From positions 1 through 64,000 of the forward strand of contig CASFXY010000004.1 in NCBI GenBank assembly GCA_949298805.1: DNA of 64,000 nt, given 5' to 3'. Shown piece by piece: positions 1,929 to 46,999 of the stretch (the first letter of the stretch is position 1; each line of letters starts with the position of its first letter). A program made the position numbers and the translations under genes. This stretch comes from an uncultured bacterium. Lineage in GTDB: Bacteria > Cyanobacteriota > Vampirovibrionia > Gastranaerophilales > Gastranaerophilaceae. The notes beneath the pieces were generated by a model. The model saw only the letters and a program-made list of their open reading frames with translations, ran no database searches and was not told where the DNA came from.

Positions 1929-3275
1929 ATGGATGAAGAATTGGAATTAAAAATTCATAATCTTAAAACAAAAGCAATAAACACTCTTGAAAACACTCAA
2001 CTATACGGTTTTAAAGGGGCTGTTTCAAAGCTTTTGGGCTTAACTGTTGAAGTTAAACTTCCGGGGCTTAAAATTGGAGATTTGTGCTACATTCAAACTT
2101 ATACGGGAGAAAAAAAAGCCGCAGAAGTTGTTGCTTTTAAAGGAGATTGTGCGCAATTACTCCTGCTTTATGACGGTGAAGGAATAGGGCAGGGGAGTTT
2201 GGTTGAAACAACAGGCGGTCCTATTATGCTTCCTGTTGGGGATTTTTTGCTGGGCAGGCTTATAAATCCGCTTGGCGAACCCTTAGACGGACGTCCTTTA
2301 GACCTTACAAATGCACAATATATGAATATTAACGGAACAATTCCGGATGCTTTTCATCGTCCGATTATAAAAAATTCAATATCAACCGGCATTAGGGTAA
2401 TTGATTCACTTTTAACAATGGGTCAAGGGCAACGCATGGGACTGTTTGCAGGTTCGGGTGTAGGCAAATCCACAATGTTAGGTATGATTGCAAGGAACTC
2501 TGAAGCAGACATAAACGTTATGGCACTAATTGGAGAACGCGGACGTGAAGTAAAAGAATTTATTGAAAATTCATTGGGACCTGAGGGCATGAAACGCTCT
2601 GTTATTGTTTGCTCAACAGGCGACCAACCTCCTCTTATCAGGCAAAAAGCCCTTCTGGCAGCAACAACTGTTTGTGAATACTTTAGGGATCAGGGCAAAA
2701 AAGTTTTTCTTATGACAGATACAGTAACCCGTTGTGCAATGGCGGGGCGTGAAGTGGGTCTTTCAATCGGAGAACCGCCTACTATGAAAGGTTATCCGCC
2801 TTCAATATTTTCTTGGTTACAACGTGCGCTTGAAAGAACAGGAAACTCTGAAAAAGGGTCAATTACCGCGCTTTACACCGTACTTATGGAGGGTGATGAC
2901 ATAACAGACCCTATTGTAGATACAGTAAGGGGTATTGTTGACGGTCACATTTTCTTATCCCGCAAGGTGGCAGAAATGAATCATTATCCCGCAATAGACC
3001 CTCTGGGTTCTATTTCAAGGCTTTTTACGGAAATAACCGACAAAGAACATCAGGAAGCAGCACAAAAAATGCGTCGTTTACTTGCAATGTATCGAGAAAA
3101 CAAAGACTTAATAGATGTTGGCATGTATCAGGCAGGCTCAAATCCAAAACTCGATGTTGCTATTGAACTTATGCCTCAAATAAATGCATTTTTGCAACAA
3201 AAAGTTTCTGATACGGTTAGCATGGAATCAACAATAAGAACTCTTAAAGACATGATGAGAAATGTAGAAGCCTAA
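1929..3275 (+). CDS. fliI: FliI/type III secretion-type export ATPase
   Basis: 448-residue ATPase of the FliI/YscN branch of the F1-beta superfamily. FliI energises unfolding and export of flagellar (or type III secretion) substrates at the cytoplasmic face of the export gate. Visible features are the Walker A motif GSGVGKST (about 175-182), LIGERGREVKEF, the Walker B stretch KVFLMTDTVTR, and GEPPTMKGYPPS typical of this family. Length is normal. ATG at 1929 is chosen: the in-frame ATG at 1872 lies in the GC-rich repeat and upstream of the -10 box. FliM and FliN homologues at 20.5-21.9 kb support a flagellar role, but a non-flagellar system is possible. The gene stands alone, and its stop overlaps the convergent small gene by 4 bases. 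Confidence 0.92.
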   Translation: MDEELELKIHNLKTKAINTLENTQLYGFKGAVSKLLGLTVEVKLPGLKIGDLCYIQTYTGEKKAAEVVAFKGDCAQLLLLYDGEGIGQGSLVETTGGPIMLPVGDFLLGRLINPLGEPLDGRPLDLTNAQYMNINGTIPDAFHRPIIKNSISTGIRVIDSLLTMGQGQRMGLFAGSGVGKSTMLGMIARNSEADINVMALIGERGREVKEFIENSLGPEGMKRSVIVCSTGDQPPLIRQKALLAATTVCEYFRDQGKKVFLMTDTVTRCAMAGREVGLSIGEPPTMKGYPPSIFSWLQRALERTGNSEKGSITALYTVLMEGDDITDPIVDTVRGIVDGHIFLSRKVAEMNHYPAIDPLGSISRLFTEITDKEHQEAAQKMRRLLAMYRENKDLIDVGMYQAGSNPKLDVAIELMPQINAFLQQKVSDTVSMESTIRTLKDMMRNVEA

Positions 3276-3532
3276 GCCTCACCTGTTTTAAAATAATCAC
3301 AAATAAATTTTTTTCTTGTATGAATTCTTAAAAGTTTTTTAATTTTTTCTTTAATGGTAGGTTTATGGCAAATTTTTTTATATTTTTCCATAAGCACAGC
3401 TTTTTTAACTAATATTTTATTGTAAACTTTTTGAATATTACCGTTTGAACCAATTTGAGGTTCAAGTTCCGCAAGCTTTTGTTTACATTTAATAATTTCT
3501 TTTTTTAGGGAATTTAGTTTTTCTGTATCCAT
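3272..3532 (-). CDS. Small basic coiled-coil hypothetical protein
   Basis: 86 residues, lysine-rich, with a predicted helical coiled coil over the first 40 residues (LKKEIIKCKQKLAELE). No membrane segment or known domain was recognised. AAGG lies upstream of the ATG at a usable distance. It converges on the fliI-like gene with a 4-base overlap. FliJ, a short coiled-coil partner of FliI, is usually longer and encoded on the same strand, so I do not assign that role. Confidence 0.5.
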   Translation of the reverse strand: MDTEKLNSLKKEIIKCKQKLAELEPQIGSNGNIQKVYNKILVKKAVLMEKYKKICHKPTIKEKIKKLLRIHTRKKFICDYFKTGEA

Positions 3533-3615
3533 ATATACCTTATTAATGGGGGTTTGCAGAATTTATATTACAACACTTTTATCCTTAAAAGTTCATCTAA
3601 AGAATGGAAAAAGTT

Positions 3616-3629
3616 TTGTTGCACAACAA
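3616..3629. promoter_or_regulatory. Inverted repeat TTGTTG-CA-CAACAA before the mannosidase promoter
   Basis: Perfect 6-base arms separated by two bases end one base upstream of the TATAAT box at 3631. The position suits an operator for a repressor that would block the promoter. No regulator gene is next to it. Confidence 0.4.
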
Positions 3630-3630
3630 G

Positions 3631-3636
3631 TATAAT
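3631..3636 (+). promoter_or_regulatory. -10 box TATAAT, probable leaderless promoter
   Basis: TATAAT ends 6 bases before the ATG at 3643 and no Shine-Dalgarno sequence is present, the same arrangement as at the fliI-like gene. A good -35 box is not evident. Confidence 0.5.
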
Positions 3637-3642
3637 AATTAT

Positions 3643-5895
3643 ATGAAAAAGCGTGTAATTGCCTATCTGCACACCCATTGGGACAGAGAATGGTACAGGG
3701 AAAAAGAAGAATTTAATTTAAGGCTTTTAGAAGTATTTGATGAAGTTTTAAAAGAGCTTGTAAATAATAATGCCCCCTGTTTTTATTTTGACGGGCAAAC
3801 AAGTGCGCTTATTGATTATTTAAAATTCAGGCCTCAAAATTTAGAACTTATAAAAAAACTTATAAAAGAAAAAAAATTATATATAGGACCTTTTTTTGTA
3901 AGTGCTGATGCTTTTTTGGTCAATTTAAGATGTCTTATAAAAAATCTTGAAAAAGGAATTGAATATTCTAAAAATCTTGGTTGTAAAGACTTTATAGGTT
4001 ATTTGCCGGACATTTTCGGTCATAGTCGGGGAGTTTTTGAAGTTTTAGAAAAATTTGACATAAAAAATGCAATTATCTGGAGAGGCACAGGTGCAATAAA
4101 AAGTGATGTAATTGTTAGAAATATAAACACAACAAGGTTAATTGAGGGTTATTTTGTTGACATATTACATCAGAACATATCTTTTCAAGCACTTGCACAA
4201 CAGCTTGAAAATTTCTTGGATAAAATTGCAAAATATTCCTCAAACACTCTTATTTTGCCCCTTGGTGGCGATCATTTGGCAATTATTAAAAATGCAAACG
4301 AAAAAATTACACAAATAAATAAGTATTTAAAAAAATATAAAATAGAGCTTTCAAGTCCTTTTGAATATTTTTCTTCAATTGATTTTTCACACGCAAAAAA
4401 TTTTAAAGGCGAATTTTTGGACAACAGTCAAAATAATATTTTAGGCGGTGTATTTTCTTCTCGAATTTATCAAAAAGTACAAAATGCAAAACTTATGCAT
4501 AAAATTTCGCGAATTATAGAACCGTTAAATTATTTTTTGAATTTGGACTATGCAGCAAATATTGACTATGCTTATGAATTAATTTTAAAAAACCATGCGC
4601 ATGATTCAATTTACGGTTGTTCTACAGATAAAGTACATAAAATTGTTGATGCTCGTTTCGAAAAAACATCTGAAATTCTCGAAGGGCTTGAAAAAAGAAT
4701 AATCAGGGATTTTCATAAAAATACAAAAAAAACAAATTATGTCGGGGTTTTTAACCTTTCTAATTATAAAAACTCTGGTGTAGTAAAAATTATAAGTGAA
4801 AACAAATTAAAACATTCACAAATAATTTCAAAAACCAAAGGGTTTTGTGATTATAAGCTTTATGACATTAACCAAGTTCCTGTTACGGAAGATATCTTAA
4901 CTTTATATGAACAACTTGTTGAAGTTGATGAACAAAAACCAATGAGTTTTAATGCTTTTAAATCAAAAAAGGCAAAAAAATTAACTTTTTGTGATAAAAA
5001 TTGTATTGAAAATCCTTATTTAAAATTAACATTAGAAAATGGAAAAATTAATATTACAGATAAAATAAAAAATCTTTTTTATAAAGATTTTATAAAAATT
5101 ACAGACACAAAAGACAATGGCGACAGCTACAATTATGCGCCTGTTTCAAAACCTGAGATTTTAAACCCGATTAAATCAAAAATTATTGAAAACGGTTCTA
5201 TACGCTCTGTTTTAAGAATTTTTTATAAAAATTTAGTCCTTGATGTAATTTTAAATAATAAAGATAGGTTTTTTGAATTTAATATAAAAATTAACAACAA
5301 AAAGAAAAATCATAAACTTCAGGCGGTATTTAGTTTAAATAAACCTGTTTATGAAACTTTTGCACAAGATAGCATGGGAATTATTAAAAGAAAATGTGAT
5401 CCTGATTATTCACTTTTTGAAAATCAGCCTGCTGCGCGTCCGCATGAGTTAAAAACAAACTCGTTTCCAATGTTAAATTTTGTATATGCTCAAGGCGCAG
5501 GTATTTTAAGCGAAGGTATAAATGAATATGAAATTTATAAGAATGAATTAAGAATTGCTCTTTTACGCTCTAATGGTGTTATTTCCAATCCAAAATGCGC
5601 TTCTCGCTCTATTCCTGCAGGTCCTGCAATATTAACTCCTGATTTGCAATGCTTGGGCTTACAAAATGTTCGTTTTGGCTTATGTTTTACATCAAAAAAA
5701 GAAAAAATGTTTGAATATAGTGAAAAGTTTTTAAAGACACAGCTTGCTTTTGTTCTTGATGAACATATTGAAGAAAAAATTTTATTTAAAAATGAAAAAA
5801 ATAAACTTTTTTATGGTATAGACAGCAAAGGAGTGGGAACTTTTTACGATTTGAAAAATGACAAAATTGAACTTGCAAACATTAAAAAAATCTAA
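3643..5895 (+). CDS. Glycoside hydrolase family 38 alpha-mannosidase
   Basis: About 750 residues. GH38 enzymes are zinc-dependent retaining alpha-mannosidases. The zinc-binding motif HTHWDREWY starts at residue 10, the nucleophile motif LPDIFGHSRG has its Asp near residue 123, IWRGTG follows, and NHAHDSIYGCSTD near residue 318 supplies the third zinc-site element. The C-terminal half is the usual beta-sandwich region. There is no signal peptide, so it is probably cytoplasmic and acts on imported or intracellular mannosides. ATG at 3643 is preferred because it starts directly before the conserved strand MKKRVIAYLHTHWD; ATG at 3604 lies upstream of the -10 box. The amidohydrolase relative follows after 35 bases and may be cotranscribed. 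Confidence 0.9.
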   Translation: MKKRVIAYLHTHWDREWYREKEEFNLRLLEVFDEVLKELVNNNAPCFYFDGQTSALIDYLKFRPQNLELIKKLIKEKKLYIGPFFVSADAFLVNLRCLIKNLEKGIEYSKNLGCKDFIGYLPDIFGHSRGVFEVLEKFDIKNAIIWRGTGAIKSDVIVRNINTTRLIEGYFVDILHQNISFQALAQQLENFLDKIAKYSSNTLILPLGGDHLAIIKNANEKITQINKYLKKYKIELSSPFEYFSSIDFSHAKNFKGEFLDNSQNNILGGVFSSRIYQKVQNAKLMHKISRIIEPLNYFLNLDYAANIDYAYELILKNHAHDSIYGCSTDKVHKIVDARFEKTSEILEGLEKRIIRDFHKNTKKTNYVGVFNLSNYKNSGVVKIISENKLKHSQIISKTKGFCDYKLYDINQVPVTEDILTLYEQLVEVDEQKPMSFNAFKSKKAKKLTFCDKNCIENPYLKLTLENGKINITDKIKNLFYKDFIKITDTKDNGDSYNYAPVSKPEILNPIKSKIIENGSIRSVLRIFYKNLVLDVILNNKDRFFEFNIKINNKKKNHKLQAVFSLNKPVYETFAQDSMGIIKRKCDPDYSLFENQPAARPHELKTNSFPMLNFVYAQGAGILSEGINEYEIYKNELRIALLRSNGVISNPKCASRSIPAGPAILTPDLQCLGLQNVRFGLCFTSKKEKMFEYSEKFLKTQLAFVLDEHIEEKILFKNEKNKLFYGIDSKGVGTFYDLKNDKIELANIKKI

Positions 5896-38597: not shown

Positions 38598-39692
38598 ATG
38601 AGCGAGTTAACTTTAAATTATACCGGAATAGGCTCTTTGCCCTTCAAAGATGAAAACGCACCAAAAAAAGCTTTAGATTTTATTTTTACCGAATTTAAAA
38701 GTATGCCGTTTTGGCCCCAGTTACCGCATTTTGCGCGTGAAGAAGATATGGTTTTTCAATATACTCAAAATCTTGCAGGGCTCAGTTTTGACGGGGACAA
38801 ATATTTCTTAAATTCTGAATGTGATGAATTTTTTATTGCACTTGAAGAATTATTTTTTGATTATGAAAGTGTAACATCTGCATCAGATTTATTTGAATGC
38901 GAGGAGATACTTAATAAATATGCAATTTTGCCTCCTAATTCAAATACACTTAAGCCTTTTTTAGATAAATTGAAAAATCAAAATCCGGATTTTGTAAAAG
39001 GTTCAGTTACGGGTCCATTTACATTTTCAACTTCAATTACAGATAATGAAGGTAAATGTGCCTATTATAATGATATTTTAAGAGATGTTTGTGTTAAAAC
39101 TCTTTCCCTAAAAGCTCTTTGGCAGGTAAAAGAATTTAAAAAAGCTGCACCAAAAGCGCGTGCTGTTATTTTTATGGATGAGCCTTCAATTTCACAGGTT
39201 GGCTCGTGCGCTTTTTTATCAGTGGAAAGTTCTGATGTTATTGAAATTCTCAAAATTATTGCCAATGATTTAAAAAAATTTGATGTCATAAGCGGTATTC
39301 ATTGTTGCGGTAAAACAGATTGGGAAATAGCACTCTCGTCAGGAGTGAATGTGGTTAATTTTGATGCTTATTTTTTCGCTCAGAGTGTTGCAAATTTTGC
39401 TGCTGCAGCAAAGAAATTTATTGAAAACGGCGGTTTTTTTGCTTTCGGTATTGTACCGACAGTTGATAGTGAACTAAAAACGCTTGATATAAAGACCTTA
39501 GAAGAAAAATTTAATGATTCAATAAAATTTTTTATTTCTAAAGGAATTGATAAAAATTTACTTTTAGAACATTTGTTTTTAACACCTTCCTGCGGTTGTG
39601 GTTCTCTTAATTGTGATGATGCGCTAAAAGCATTAAGACTGACAAAAGAACTTTCAATATGTTTAAAAGAAAGGTATGGTGTATATTTATGA
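38598..39692 (+). CDS. Core methionine synthase-like protein (MetE C-terminal/UROD fold)
   Basis: 364 residues, the length of the catalytic half of cobalamin-independent methionine synthase alone. Start TGIGSLPFKDENAPKKALDFI is typical of MetE-core proteins. Zinc-site residues are visible: H235 and C237 in IHCCGKTDW and C332/C334 in TPSCGCGSL. The N-terminal folate-binding half of MetE is missing. Known core MetE proteins (as in Dehalococcoides and archaea) take methyl groups from methylcobalamin or a corrinoid protein. Which donor is used here is unknown. Related UROD-fold methyltransferases are an alternative. It overlaps the CooC-like gene by 4 bases (ATGA). Confidence 0.8.
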   Translation: MSELTLNYTGIGSLPFKDENAPKKALDFIFTEFKSMPFWPQLPHFAREEDMVFQYTQNLAGLSFDGDKYFLNSECDEFFIALEELFFDYESVTSASDLFECEEILNKYAILPPNSNTLKPFLDKLKNQNPDFVKGSVTGPFTFSTSITDNEGKCAYYNDILRDVCVKTLSLKALWQVKEFKKAAPKARAVIFMDEPSISQVGSCAFLSVESSDVIEILKIIANDLKKFDVISGIHCCGKTDWEIALSSGVNVVNFDAYFFAQSVANFAAAAKKFIENGGFFAFGIVPTVDSELKTLDIKTLEEKFNDSIKFFISKGIDKNLLLEHLFLTPSCGCGSLNCDDALKALRLTKELSICLKERYGVYL

Positions 39693-40432
39693 CACATACT
39701 CTTGCACTTTTAGGCAAAGGAGGTAGTGGTAAAACTACTTTAACAAGGGCTTTTTGTTCTCTTTTAAGAGAATATTTCCCCTCTGCTTCTATTTTGCTTG
39801 TTGATAATGATTTAACTTGTGAGCTTGCGGGAAGTTTTGGGCTAAAATCCAGAAATACAATTTATGGTATTCGTTCGGGAAAACATGAATACAAAACAGG
39901 TATTCCCAAAGGAATGACAAAACAAGAATATATTGAATGGGCACTTGAGGATATTCTGGAAGAAGTCGAAGAAAATACGAATATAATTGTTTCATGGTTT
40001 GTTGCTTCAAAAGATTGTCGCTGCCCTATTACAAAACAAATGAATGATGCGCTTGTAAAGCTTATTGACGGTTATGATTTTGTTATTTTTGATTCGGAAT
40101 TTGATTTAAAATATCTTAATTTGCTTGTGGATTATCCTATTGACACTTCAATAATTGTTGCAAATCCCACGCAAAAGTCTATTCATCTTGCAGGTGAGAT
40201 TTATGATTTTTCAAAAAAATATGCTGCAGATGGGCAGTTTGGAGTTATTTTAAATAGAGCAAAAAAAGAAACTTTAAATAAATTTGTTGAACAAATAAAT
40301 TTAAACAATCTAAATTTATTAGGTATAATTGATGATTTGGGTGAAGATGTCAATTATGAAAAAATTAAAGAAATGATAAAAGATTTTTATCCGCGCTTAA
40401 ATCTTCCGCAAAATATTTCAGGGGGTGTGTAG
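39689..40432 (+). CDS. CooC-like P-loop ATPase
   Basis: 247 residues, MinD/CooC family. The deviant Walker A is GKGGSGKTT (9-17). A CxC pair at C110/C112 (KDCRCP) sits where CooC proteins bind metal at their dimer interface (112/114 in the studied Carboxydothermus enzyme, as I recall). CooC and relatives load nickel into carbon monoxide dehydrogenase or help activate corrinoid proteins. No such enzyme is in the window. The ATG at 39689 overlaps the upstream stop; an earlier in-frame ATG would lie deep in that gene. Its target is likely linked to one-carbon metabolism, as an inference from the operon. Confidence 0.82.
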   Translation: MTHTLALLGKGGSGKTTLTRAFCSLLREYFPSASILLVDNDLTCELAGSFGLKSRNTIYGIRSGKHEYKTGIPKGMTKQEYIEWALEDILEEVEENTNIIVSWFVASKDCRCPITKQMNDALVKLIDGYDFVIFDSEFDLKYLNLLVDYPIDTSIIVANPTQKSIHLAGEIYDFSKKYAADGQFGVILNRAKKETLNKFVEQINLNNLNLLGIIDDLGEDVNYEKIKEMIKDFYPRLNLPQNISGGV

Positions 40433-43975: not shown

Positions 43976-45217
43976 ATGTATAATTATGAAGCATTAAGCA
44001 GTGATGACCGTATACAAATGTGTGCTAAAATAGGTATAAAATCAAGCGATGAGCTTTTTAATGTTATACCTGCAGGCGCACGTGTGACTGATTTTAAATT
44101 AAATGAGCCTTTAAGCGAGCTTGAAGTTCAAAAAAAACTTAAAAAAATTTCATCTGAAAATAATACTGCCTATGCTTGTTTTTTAGGTGCAGGCGCATAT
44201 AAAAAATTTATCCCCTCGGCATTGCTTGACACTGTTTCTCGTTACGAATTTTTATCTGCTTACACTCCTTATCAGGCAGAAATTTCTCAAGGTTCATTAC
44301 AAATAATGTATGAATTTCAGACAATGATTTGTAATTTATGTGCCCAAGATGTTGCAAATGCTTCTGTTTATGATGGTGCAACTGCTTGTGCAGAGGCTAT
44401 TTTAATGGCTTGCCGTTTAAGCAAAAAAAATAAAGCTTTTGTTGATGAAAATATTAATCCAAATTATTTAGAAGTTATAAAAACATACCTTTATGCGGCA
44501 AATATAGAGTTAATTATCTCGAATGCTTGTAATGATGAAGATTTGGCGTGCAAATTATATCAAAGTCCAAACTATCTTGGCGAAATTATGCAAGTGCCGC
44601 AAAAAAACAATAAAGAAATAATTATTGCTTGTGTTGATATTTCAACATTGTCACTTTTAGAACCTCCGAAAAGTGATATTACAGTGGGCGATTTTCAAAC
44701 GCTTGGGCTCTCACTTAATTTTGGAGGACCTTATGGCGGGTTTATATGTTGCCATGATGAATATAAACGTCAATTACCGGGTAGGATAGTCGGTAAAACA
44801 GTTGATAAAGAAGGTAATGATGCTTACGTTTTAACTTTACAGGCGCGAGAACAGCATATAAGACGTGAAAAAGCCACAAGTAACATTTGTTCTAATCAAG
44901 CCCATTGTGCGCTTTGTGCTACACTTTATCTAAGTCTTTTGGGAGAAAAAGGATTTAGGGAAGTGAATTATCTTGCGTATAAAAATGCACATAACTTAGC
45001 AAAAGGGCTTCAAAATAAAGGCTATAAAATTTTAAATGAGAACTTTTTTAATGAATTTGTTTACGAATTGAAAGATGGACAAAATGCTCAAATTTACCTT
45101 GAAATGCTTAAAGAAAAAGGTATTTTAGGGGGTATAGCTCTTGACAATAAAAGAATTTTAACTGCCGCAACCGAATTAAATGATGAAGACGAAATCAAAC
45201 TGTATTTAAGCCTATGA
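43976..45217 (+). CDS. gcvPA: Glycine dehydrogenase (decarboxylating) subunit 1
   Basis: 413 residues, slightly shorter than the usual 440-450. It is the non-PLP half of glycine decarboxylase and pairs with GcvPB encoded at 17.5 kb. Typical motifs are FLGAGAYKKFIPSALLDTVSRYEFLSAYTPYQAEISQGSLQ, YDGATACAEAI, GLSLNFGGPYGGFICC, LPGRIVGKTVDKEG and LQAREQHIRREKATSNICSNQ. The normal position of gcvPB directly downstream is taken by an unknown gene, which overlaps by 4 bases. Confidence 0.96.
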   Translation: MYNYEALSSDDRIQMCAKIGIKSSDELFNVIPAGARVTDFKLNEPLSELEVQKKLKKISSENNTAYACFLGAGAYKKFIPSALLDTVSRYEFLSAYTPYQAEISQGSLQIMYEFQTMICNLCAQDVANASVYDGATACAEAILMACRLSKKNKAFVDENINPNYLEVIKTYLYAANIELIISNACNDEDLACKLYQSPNYLGEIMQVPQKNNKEIIIACVDISTLSLLEPPKSDITVGDFQTLGLSLNFGGPYGGFICCHDEYKRQLPGRIVGKTVDKEGNDAYVLTLQAREQHIRREKATSNICSNQAHCALCATLYLSLLGEKGFREVNYLAYKNAHNLAKGLQNKGYKILNENFFNEFVYELKDGQNAQIYLEMLKEKGILGGIALDNKRILTAATELNDEDEIKLYLSL

Positions 45218-45948
45218 CAAAGGATATAATTGCTTTTTGGGGATATCCGCACCCTGATTTAATAAAAAAAACAAAAATTCAATATTCAAGTGCAAAGTGG
45301 GTTGATTTAGATATCTGTTATAATTATCCATCCTCAAAATTCACTCCTGATGCGTATTGCGGGATTATTAAAAATATTTTTGATAATGCGTTTTATTTGA
45401 AAGACAGAATTATAAAAATTATAGCTGCAGTGGGAAAAGATAAATGTGACAGCGGATTTTTTGCCGCAAATTTATTAAAACAAGAGGGATTTGATATTGA
45501 AATTTCTTTTTTTGAAGAAACTCTACCCTTAAATCAGCTGCCTGATGTACCTATTTGTAAAAGCTCTTTGCCTCTTAAGGAAAAATTATCATTAATTACT
45601 GCAAACATTATTGAGCAAAAAAATTATTCACATCTTGTGCAAACAAAAGCTCGTTTTGGCTTTTGGGGTGTGCCTCCCAATGATTTGAATATTTGTGATT
45701 TATTTCCTTCCCAAACACATGTTTTTGGCTGGTCAAGATGTGTTGAGGCTAAAAATCCGGCTAATTTTGAGCTTGAAATGTTTGTTGAACCTGATTTACC
45801 AACTGTATTTTTTGCGCAGACATTTTGTTCAAAAACTGCTCTGGCAAAGTATTTGGCGGATAAATACAACGGGCTTTATATTGATATTGATGTTACTCCT
45901 TCAAATTCGGCTTATGCTAAAATAGAAGCATTTTTGAGGTTAAGATGA
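45214..45948 (+). CDS. Hypothetical protein of the one-carbon operon
   Basis: Unrecognised 244-residue soluble protein. It has seven cysteines (35, 49, 78, 115, 161, 176, 205) and conserved-looking segments ARFGFWGVPPNDLNICDLFP, GWSRCVEAKNP and PTVFFAQTFCSKTALAKYLA. Alternating alpha/beta elements are likely (IIKIIAAVGK, GLYIDIDVTPS). The ATGA overlaps on both sides tie it tightly to gcvPA and to the HgdC-like activator. A metal- or Fe-S-binding partner of that activator is a possible role, inferred only from context and cysteine content. No 2-hydroxyacyl-CoA dehydratase motif was identified. Confidence 0.75.
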   Translation: MTKDIIAFWGYPHPDLIKKTKIQYSSAKWVDLDICYNYPSSKFTPDAYCGIIKNIFDNAFYLKDRIIKIIAAVGKDKCDSGFFAANLLKQEGFDIEISFFEETLPLNQLPDVPICKSSLPLKEKLSLITANIIEQKNYSHLVQTKARFGFWGVPPNDLNICDLFPSQTHVFGWSRCVEAKNPANFELEMFVEPDLPTVFFAQTFCSKTALAKYLADKYNGLYIDIDVTPSNSAYAKIEAFLRLR

Positions 45949-46607
45949 ACGATTCAAAATATTATATAGATGCAGGTACAACTTGGACAAAAATTCTTGA
46001 AATATTACCTATTGGTGAGCGTAAATACAGCGTTTATCCTACAAATCAAGCAAGAAAATTTAACTTGAATTATGAAAAAATAACAGGTCATACAAGTGAT
46101 AAGAATTCAAATAAATATGAAAATGAGGTTGTAGCTCTTGCGATGGGCGCAAAAGCACACCTTGAAAATAATTTCATCGCGCTTGATTTAGGTTCGAGGG
46201 ACGTTAAATGGATAAAATTTAAAAACGGTAAATTTTCTGATATGGATTGGAATTCTAGTTGTGCTGCAGCAACAGGTGCAACAGTTGAAATGCTCTTAAA
46301 ATTTTATGATGTTAAAGTAGAGGATTTAAAATTTTGCGAGGAGAAATATCCTGTTACTTGTGGGATTTTTGGGCTGGAAAAAATTATGGATGATGTTTCA
46401 AAAGGGCTTTTGCCTTCAATTGCAATTTCGAAATTTATTCATGGAATAGCTTATAACGCTTATAATTTTACAAAAAATCCTGATAAGATTTGTATTTCCG
46501 GTGGATTTTGCGAAAATAAATGCTTTATGGACTCTTTGCAAAAGTATTGTGAAGTGTTGCCTCTGGGGCGTTTTGTTCTTGTTGACGGTCTTGCCTTGCG
46601 TCCATAA
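45945..46607 (+). CDS. HgdC/BcrA-type ATPase (Fe-S activator of the ASKHA fold)
   Basis: 220 residues, BadF/BadG/BcrA/BcrD family. Phosphate-binding loops IDAGTTWTKIL (8-18) and LDLGSRDVKWI (80-90), the cluster motif SSCAAATGATVEML (C106; canonical NxxCAAGTG) and a second cysteine C139 (PVTCGIF), matching the two cysteines that hold the bridging 4Fe-4S cluster of HgdC dimers. CISGGFCENKCF replaces the usual GGV motif. Such proteins use ATP to drive low-potential electrons into a partner enzyme. No dehydratase or reductase partner is in the window. It is the last gene of the operon and overlaps the unknown gene by 4 bases. Confidence 0.87.
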   Translation: MNDSKYYIDAGTTWTKILEILPIGERKYSVYPTNQARKFNLNYEKITGHTSDKNSNKYENEVVALAMGAKAHLENNFIALDLGSRDVKWIKFKNGKFSDMDWNSSCAAATGATVEMLLKFYDVKVEDLKFCEEKYPVTCGIFGLEKIMDDVSKGLLPSIAISKFIHGIAYNAYNFTKNPDKICISGGFCENKCFMDSLQKYCEVLPLGRFVLVDGLALRP

Positions 46608-46630: not shown

Positions 46631-46999
46631 ATGAATTTGAGGATTTTGCTTACTTTTATATTTTTATGCGTGCAGTTGTTTGTTTACAGTGCTGTTTGTG
46701 CGGATAATCATACGCATTTTAAGAAAAACTCATTAATTGAAAAAAATTTTATAATTGATGCTGAAAAAAACGGTGTTTTAAATAAAACTTTAAGCGATGG
46801 GCATTTTGTATGCCAAAATAATTCTTCGAAGTTTCTTAATTCTCATAAAGAGGTAAATGGCGGTTTTTTATCTTCAGTTATACCTTCTTTCAGATTTAAT
46901 TTTTCAAATAAAGCAAATTATTTTTATAAAAATAATTTTTTAACAATTAATTGCACTAAACTCGCATACTCAACCGAAATAAACCGTCGGGCACCTTAG
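46631..46999 (+). CDS. Small hypothetical protein with N-terminal hydrophobic segment
   Basis: Unrecognised 122-residue protein. Residues 1-24 (MNLRILLTFIFLCVQLFVYSAVCA) look like a signal peptide with cleavage after the last Ala. The mature part is Asn/Lys/Phe-rich with two cysteines and an NRRAP ending. Composition is close to random AT-rich sequence, so coding status is moderate. It follows the HgdC-like gene by 23 bases and precedes the oadG-like gene. Confidence 0.5.
   Translation: MNLRILLTFIFLCVQLFVYSAVCADNHTHFKKNSLIEKNFIIDAEKNGVLNKTLSDGHFVCQNNSSKFLNSHKEVNGGFLSSVIPSFRFNFSNKANYFYKNNFLTINCTKLAYSTEINRRAP

Follow-up and report, generated by a model that had tools for sequence, protein, structure and literature searches.

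The 244-residue protein encoded directly upstream of an HgdC-type activator in the gastranaerophilalean DNA studied here is, to judge from its predicted structure, a miniature member of the HGD-D superfamily (2-hydroxyacyl-CoA dehydratases, benzoyl-CoA reductases and double-cubane proteins) with two Rossmann-like domains, and it is probably the client of that activator. The two proteins, in the following referred to as unk and act, would then have the architecture of a two-component, ATP-driven, low-potential Fe-S reductase, a reading to which we assign a probability of roughly 70%. Their genes lie in the window, i.e. the whole stretch of 64,000 nucleotides that was analysed, and the source is a metagenome-assembled genome of the Candidatus Gastranaerophilales type, a gut-dwelling group related to the cyanobacteria, with a size of 1.68 Mb.

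Locus and joint occurrence of the two genes

The two overlapping reading frames from which the original prediction started were confirmed (Table 1). An ATGA overlap joins gcvPA to unk (45214-45217), where the stop codon of the one meets the start codon of the other, and a second joins unk to act in the same manner; this spacing fits the translational coupling that had been proposed for the pair. In the genus of the window, unk and act constitute the end of a run in the order MtbA/MetE-like gene, CooC-like gene, folD, alr, gcvT, gcvH, gcvPA, unk and act. The start of this run (38598-40432) is occupied by the MtbA/MetE-like methyltransferase, a protein of 364 aa with a weak match to PRK00957 methionine synthase and to MtbA, followed by the CooC/MinD-like ATPase. 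The gcv/folate context was considered as a clue to function and dropped, because it is confined to the window genus. Directly 3' of act there is an ORF of 122 aa with a signal-peptide-like start (46631-46999), which is poorly conserved and present only in the window genus and its closest kin.

Table 1. Positions of the two genes and of the codons and motifs discussed in the text; positions refer to the window unless a contig is named, and fractions are distinct homologues that share the residue
Feature	Position	Strand	Description
unk	45214..45948	+	244 aa, seven Cys; predicted miniature HGD-D-fold protein, proposed client
unk C49 codon	45358..45360	+	motif YCxIIKN; equivalent to BzdN C73 / BzdO C95
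unk C78 codon	45445..45447	+	motif KDKCDS; equivalent to BzdN C100 / BzdO C128
unk C176 codon	45739..45741	+	motif GWxRCVE; 62/75; by motif the distal ligand C263 of BzdN
unk C205 codon	45826..45828	+	motif QxFCxK; equivalent to BzdN C327 / BzdO C380
ATGA stop/start overlap of unk and act	45945..45948	+	read from the sequence
act	45945..46607	+	220 aa; HgdC-type ATPase/activator, predicted homodimer with one shared [4Fe-4S]
act C106 codon	46260..46262	+	cluster cysteine, on the NDKCAAGTG cysteine of HgdC; 71/71
act C139 codon	46359..46361	+	cluster cysteine, on the TCTVFAE cysteine of HgdC; 71/71
act C189-x3-C193	46509..46523	+	adenosine-binding loop SGGFCENKC; conserved in the subfamily
Pair from another class, L162 (G297:C106)	2467-3846		unk and act side by side

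The same 289 genomes from the class were searched with profiles of both proteins. The unk gene is present in 89 of them and act, counted at strong scores, likewise in 89; 88 genomes possess both genes, one unk only, one act only and 199 neither (Fisher p = 1e-72, a value that ignores shared descent). Phylogenetic co-occurrence had been named as a check on the supposed activator-client pair, and it came out in favour of the pairing, with both genes in 88 of the 90 genomes that carry either. The two exceptions are G234 (act only, in an assembly of 110 contigs) and G254 (unk only, 94% complete), where the missing partner may be due to assembly gaps. Rather than lying apart in most genomes, the two genes are neighbours in 67 of the 88: unk immediately precedes act on one strand, and the gap between them ranges from -1 to 38 bp. 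In the remaining 21, which belong to the genera g7 and g15, they are located on different contigs and are nevertheless both present. In g7, both unlinked genes occur in eight genomes, unk without act in one, and neither gene in 13 (p = 3e-5, again a value that ignores shared descent), and such joint presence and absence of unlinked genes within one genus makes their transfer as one block a poor explanation. When gene neighbourhoods were compared in 25 genera, unk and act were the sole genes common to all, a single client gene was found beside act with no second client subunit, and no substrate pathway was tied to the pair. Since unk and act are nearly always present or absent as a pair, they probably represent one self-contained reducing machine.

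The pair recurs outside the class. In a phylum-wide sample, one GC-rich genome from another class has unk and act abutting with zero gap, and the encoded proteins share 39% (unk) and 41% (act) identity with those of the window. The contig has a GC content of 59%, vs 32% for the window, and unk is absent from the other 17 of the 18 genomes of that class, so that transfer or misbinning of this contig is possible; in either case its composition indicates that the pair occurs outside Gastranaerophilales. Unrelated genes surround this second pair, among them IscU-like and NifS/IscS-like ones encoded on the opposite strand. No relatives were found in the viral contigs and plasmids searched.

Folds and conserved cysteines

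The activator is a genuine relative of HgdC with an ASKHA fold. Compared with the family models, it gives E = 5e-14 for TIGR00241 (acyl-CoA dehydratase activase; 52 of 125 bits) and E = 4e-6 for PF01869 (27 of 31.5 bits), in both cases under the curated cut-off. HgdC of A. fermentans (1hux) is matched with E = 2.6e-10 by the sequence on its own and with E = 6e-15 by a profile of its family. The six best fold matches of its AF2 model (pLDDT 87.9) are exclusively HgdC-type activators (Z 19.3-21.1 over 216-219 of 220 residues), followed by pantothenate kinases at Z 16.9. First among them is DCCP-R (Z 21.1, 217 of 220 residues), the reductase that partners DCCP. The retention of the cluster cysteines C106 and C139, already noted in the original prediction, was borne out by the alignment to the HgdC motifs, and both are invariant among the distinct homologues of act. 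A further pair of cysteines is a feature of the subfamily: C189 occurs in 71 of 71 and C193 in 70 of 71 homologues, and they are absent from the HgdC sequences aligned.

The upstream protein had been described as unknown, and a profile search had been suggested for it. Single-sequence searches with the window protein gave no match in Pfam, NCBIfam or the PDB, and no Pfam or NCBIfam model recognises it; among 39 homologues of unk a single one matches PF06050 (HGD-D), with E 0.026. The predicted structure, by contrast, is informative. The AF2 model (pLDDT 79.7, pTM 0.70, built on a shallow alignment) consists of two alpha/beta halves, and in Foldseek its three matches with E < 0.001 are DCCP (6eno), MbdN and DCCP (7yyl). 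In VIA-align the first ten rows are all HGD-D proteins, among them HadC, DCCP, BzdN and MbdN (Z 12.9 to 8.5 over 222-235 of 244 residues), vs Z 6.1 for the next unrelated protein; the best match is HadC (3o3n_B) at Z 12.9, tied with DCCP. The earlier claim that no enzyme of the kind driven by such activators is encoded here was accordingly mistaken, as the neighbour itself is predicted to have the dehydratase/DCCP fold in miniature, together with three cysteines of the cluster type. Where YjiM and BzdN have about 140 residues that form the central helical domain, unk has about 45; in BzdNO this domain contributes to the channel that takes up the CoA tail (PMC11971306).

The count of seven cysteines in unk was correct, but only C49, C78 and C205 are universal (75 of 75 distinct homologues); C35, C115 and C161 each occur in a minority of these, and C176 is widespread without being universal. 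In a profile-profile alignment against 12 HGD-D proteins (including E. coli YjiM, DCCP, BzdN, MbdN, HadC, HadB and plasmid-encoded relatives) the three universal cysteines coincide exactly with the family's three ligand columns, with YCxIIKN on LCPLIKS, KDKCDS on ETTCDG and QTFCSK on LQACHT, and there is also a C-terminal similarity (KIEAFLRL and RVAAFIEML). The alignment scores 27.5, compared with a mean of 15.3 and a maximum of 23.6 in 400 full shuffles and a maximum of 27.2 in 400 shuffles with the cysteines fixed in place; all three cysteines came to lie on ligand columns in none of the 800 shuffles. Unrelated natural families score up to 26.9, a cruder, uncurated unk alignment reaches 22.5, and the hhalign probability is 7.6% with deeper alignments (1.4% in a first run with 16 unk and 5 HGD-D sequences, an alignment too shallow). 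The score alone is thus not decisive, and the case for unk stands on fold, cysteine register and activator jointly.

The ligands described for the benzoyl-CoA reductases allow this register to be read in terms of clusters. The double cubane of BzdN is bound by C36, C73, C100, C263, C293 and C327, and the catalytic [4Fe-4S]-OH2 cluster of BzdO by C95, C128 and C380 (PMC11971306); residue numbers of BzdN were matched to our alignment via the printed BzdN sequence. Equivalents of C36 and C293 are missing from unk, and that of C263 is present in 62 of 75 homologues. On these grounds we predict a single cubane in which one iron is open, on the pattern of BzdO, rather than a double cubane. With both the helical domain and the distal ligands gone, unk would belong to the superfamily, yet stand outside the CoA dehydratases, the benzoyl-CoA reductases and DCCP.

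Proposed reaction and rival explanations

From the gene pairing, co-occurrence, predicted fold and cysteine equivalence obtained here we infer the cluster, the complex, the electron flow and the class of substrate as follows. By analogy with its family, act would form a homodimer whose two subunits each contribute C106 and C139 to one common [4Fe-4S] cluster. It would take up an electron from ferredoxin or flavodoxin, subsequently bind ATP, dock on a putative unk dimer and inject the electron, at very low potential, into a [4Fe-4S] cluster of unk, which may be held by C49, C78 and C205 between the two Rossmann-like domains and would leave its fourth iron open to substrate. The role that such a system might have is a CoA-independent reduction of a small molecule, DCCP-like but with a single cubane. 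The lack of the CoA-channel helical domain and of the distal-cluster ligands makes this role the most likely one, and at somewhat short of even odds we tentatively suggest that the pair itself reduces a small molecule independently of CoA. A more specific proposal, which we put forward with still greater reserve, is that of an ATP-driven, CoA-independent reductase with a single open-site [4Fe-4S] cluster and a substrate outside the known repertoire, an exceptionally small system for this superfamily.

With neither a CoA channel nor a second subunit nor a constant metabolic neighbour, a DCCP-type small-molecule reductase is rated highest, and the main rival is an electron relay, in which unk would still be the client of act but work on another protein, e.g. 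as reactivator of a corrinoid or radical enzyme. The run folD-alr-gcvT-gcvH-gcvPA of the window genus, opened by the MtbA/MetE-like methyltransferase and the CooC-like ATPase, would suit such a relay, and corrinoid activating enzymes are likewise ATP-dependent (PMC6739815). We nevertheless consider it unlikely, as the gcv context is found in that one genus, the distribution of the MtbA-like gene (matches in 24 of 34 genera tested) differs from that of the pair, and the universal set of three cysteine ligands is the one that goes with a cluster whose fourth iron is open.

Clearly less probable than a relay is that unk represents a genuine 2-hydroxyacyl-CoA dehydratase in shortened form, with a hydroxyacyl-CoA as its substrate. 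The position of HadC as joint first structural match would agree with this, as would the dehydratase type of act and a gene for a glutamate/dicarboxylate-type (SDF) symporter that in six genera (L113, L117, L118, L132, L133 and L135) directly precedes unk, at a distance of 2-22 bp. That symporter, however, is present in 80 of 80 genomes tested, with or without the pair, and since it is universal in the sample it provides at most a weak functional hint. Moreover, the CoA channel is built by a central helical domain (PMC11971306) which unk lacks, and neither a second subunit nor a gene of a CoA pathway is constant beside the pair in the 25 genera.

A different objection is that unk and act are a conserved operon and nothing more, with act in fact serving an HGD-D-like protein encoded elsewhere. 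The genome does contain such a gene, L029 (G000:C2:48423-49499; 359 aa), with a weak PF06050 match over its C-terminal part, and a distant dehydratase of this kind was the alternative partner envisaged in the original prediction. As it turned out, L029 is present in 80 of 80 genomes tested irrespective of the pair, and the same genome encodes a separate full-length activator, L001 (G000:C12; 335 aa, TIGR00241 194 bits). Weak activator matches in ORFs of about 335 aa are likewise found in the majority of the family's genomes without the pair. L029 and the L001-type activator look like a separate universal set. As unk and act, on the other hand, occur together even where unlinked, we regard service to L029 as very improbable. 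L001 adjoins a rubrerythrin-like gene.

Least probable of all is a sulfur-removing enzyme like TudS of the same superfamily, which likewise has a three-cysteine [4Fe-4S] cluster with an open iron (PMC10611767) and is described as a single domain of the BCR I/HAD fold (PMC11971306), since the unk model has two alpha/beta domains, DUF523 matches none of the 39 unk members and TudS is redox-independent (PMC10611767), which would leave the co-inherited act unexplained.

Relation to known systems and significance

Among the known systems closest to the proposed reductase, DCCP/DCCP-R (6eno, 7yyl) likewise consists of two genes, one for a small HgdC-type activator and one for a HGD-D-fold protein that works independently of CoA; its members are the top Foldseek matches of unk and the top fold match of act. 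The pair differs from it in the length of the client (244 vs about 420 aa), in the absence of the central helical domain, and in having universal cysteines for the proximal cluster only, so that a single cubane is predicted vs the [8Fe-9S] cluster on six cysteines of DCCP. HadBC and its activator (3o3m/3o3n, 4eht) share with the pair the predicted fold, the three-cysteine cluster arrangement and the ATP-driven activator; unlike HadBC, however, the pair lacks a gene for a heterodimer partner, a CoA-channel domain and constant nearby CoA pathway genes. In BzdNOPQ and MbdONPQ (8s02, 9gai) the similarity lies in the three proximal ligands of BzdN and BzdO, which match C49, C78 and C205, whereas unk has neither the distal ligands C36 and C293 nor the helical domain, and is a single client gene. 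Finally, the TudS/DUF523 desulfidases resemble unk as small members of the same superfamily with an open-site [4Fe-4S] on three cysteines, which in unk is predicted, but they are redox-independent and have one domain, in contrast to the two domains and the co-inherited activator of the present system.

HgdC-type activators and HGD-D proteins as such are already known. By contrast, the family libraries and literature searched contained no miniature, single-cubane version devoid of the CoA channel and accompanied by a co-inherited activator of its own, and the literature searched included no paper connecting Gastranaerophilales with these proteins. The example of unk also shows that standard family models miss members of the HGD-D superfamily.

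ATP-driven Fe-S reductases attain very low potentials and carry out reductions that are among the hardest in biology, and we know of no physiological role for DCCP, the CoA-independent branch. A stripped-down version of only two genes, which is optional in gut bacteria, offers a compact system in which to ask what share of the fold is required, and the comparison of closely related species with and without the pair constitutes a route to the substrate. If the more specific proposal made above, that of a single-cubane reductase with a substrate outside the known repertoire, is true, the pair would represent a third evolutionary outcome of this superfamily, alongside the CoA enzymes and the double-cubane proteins.
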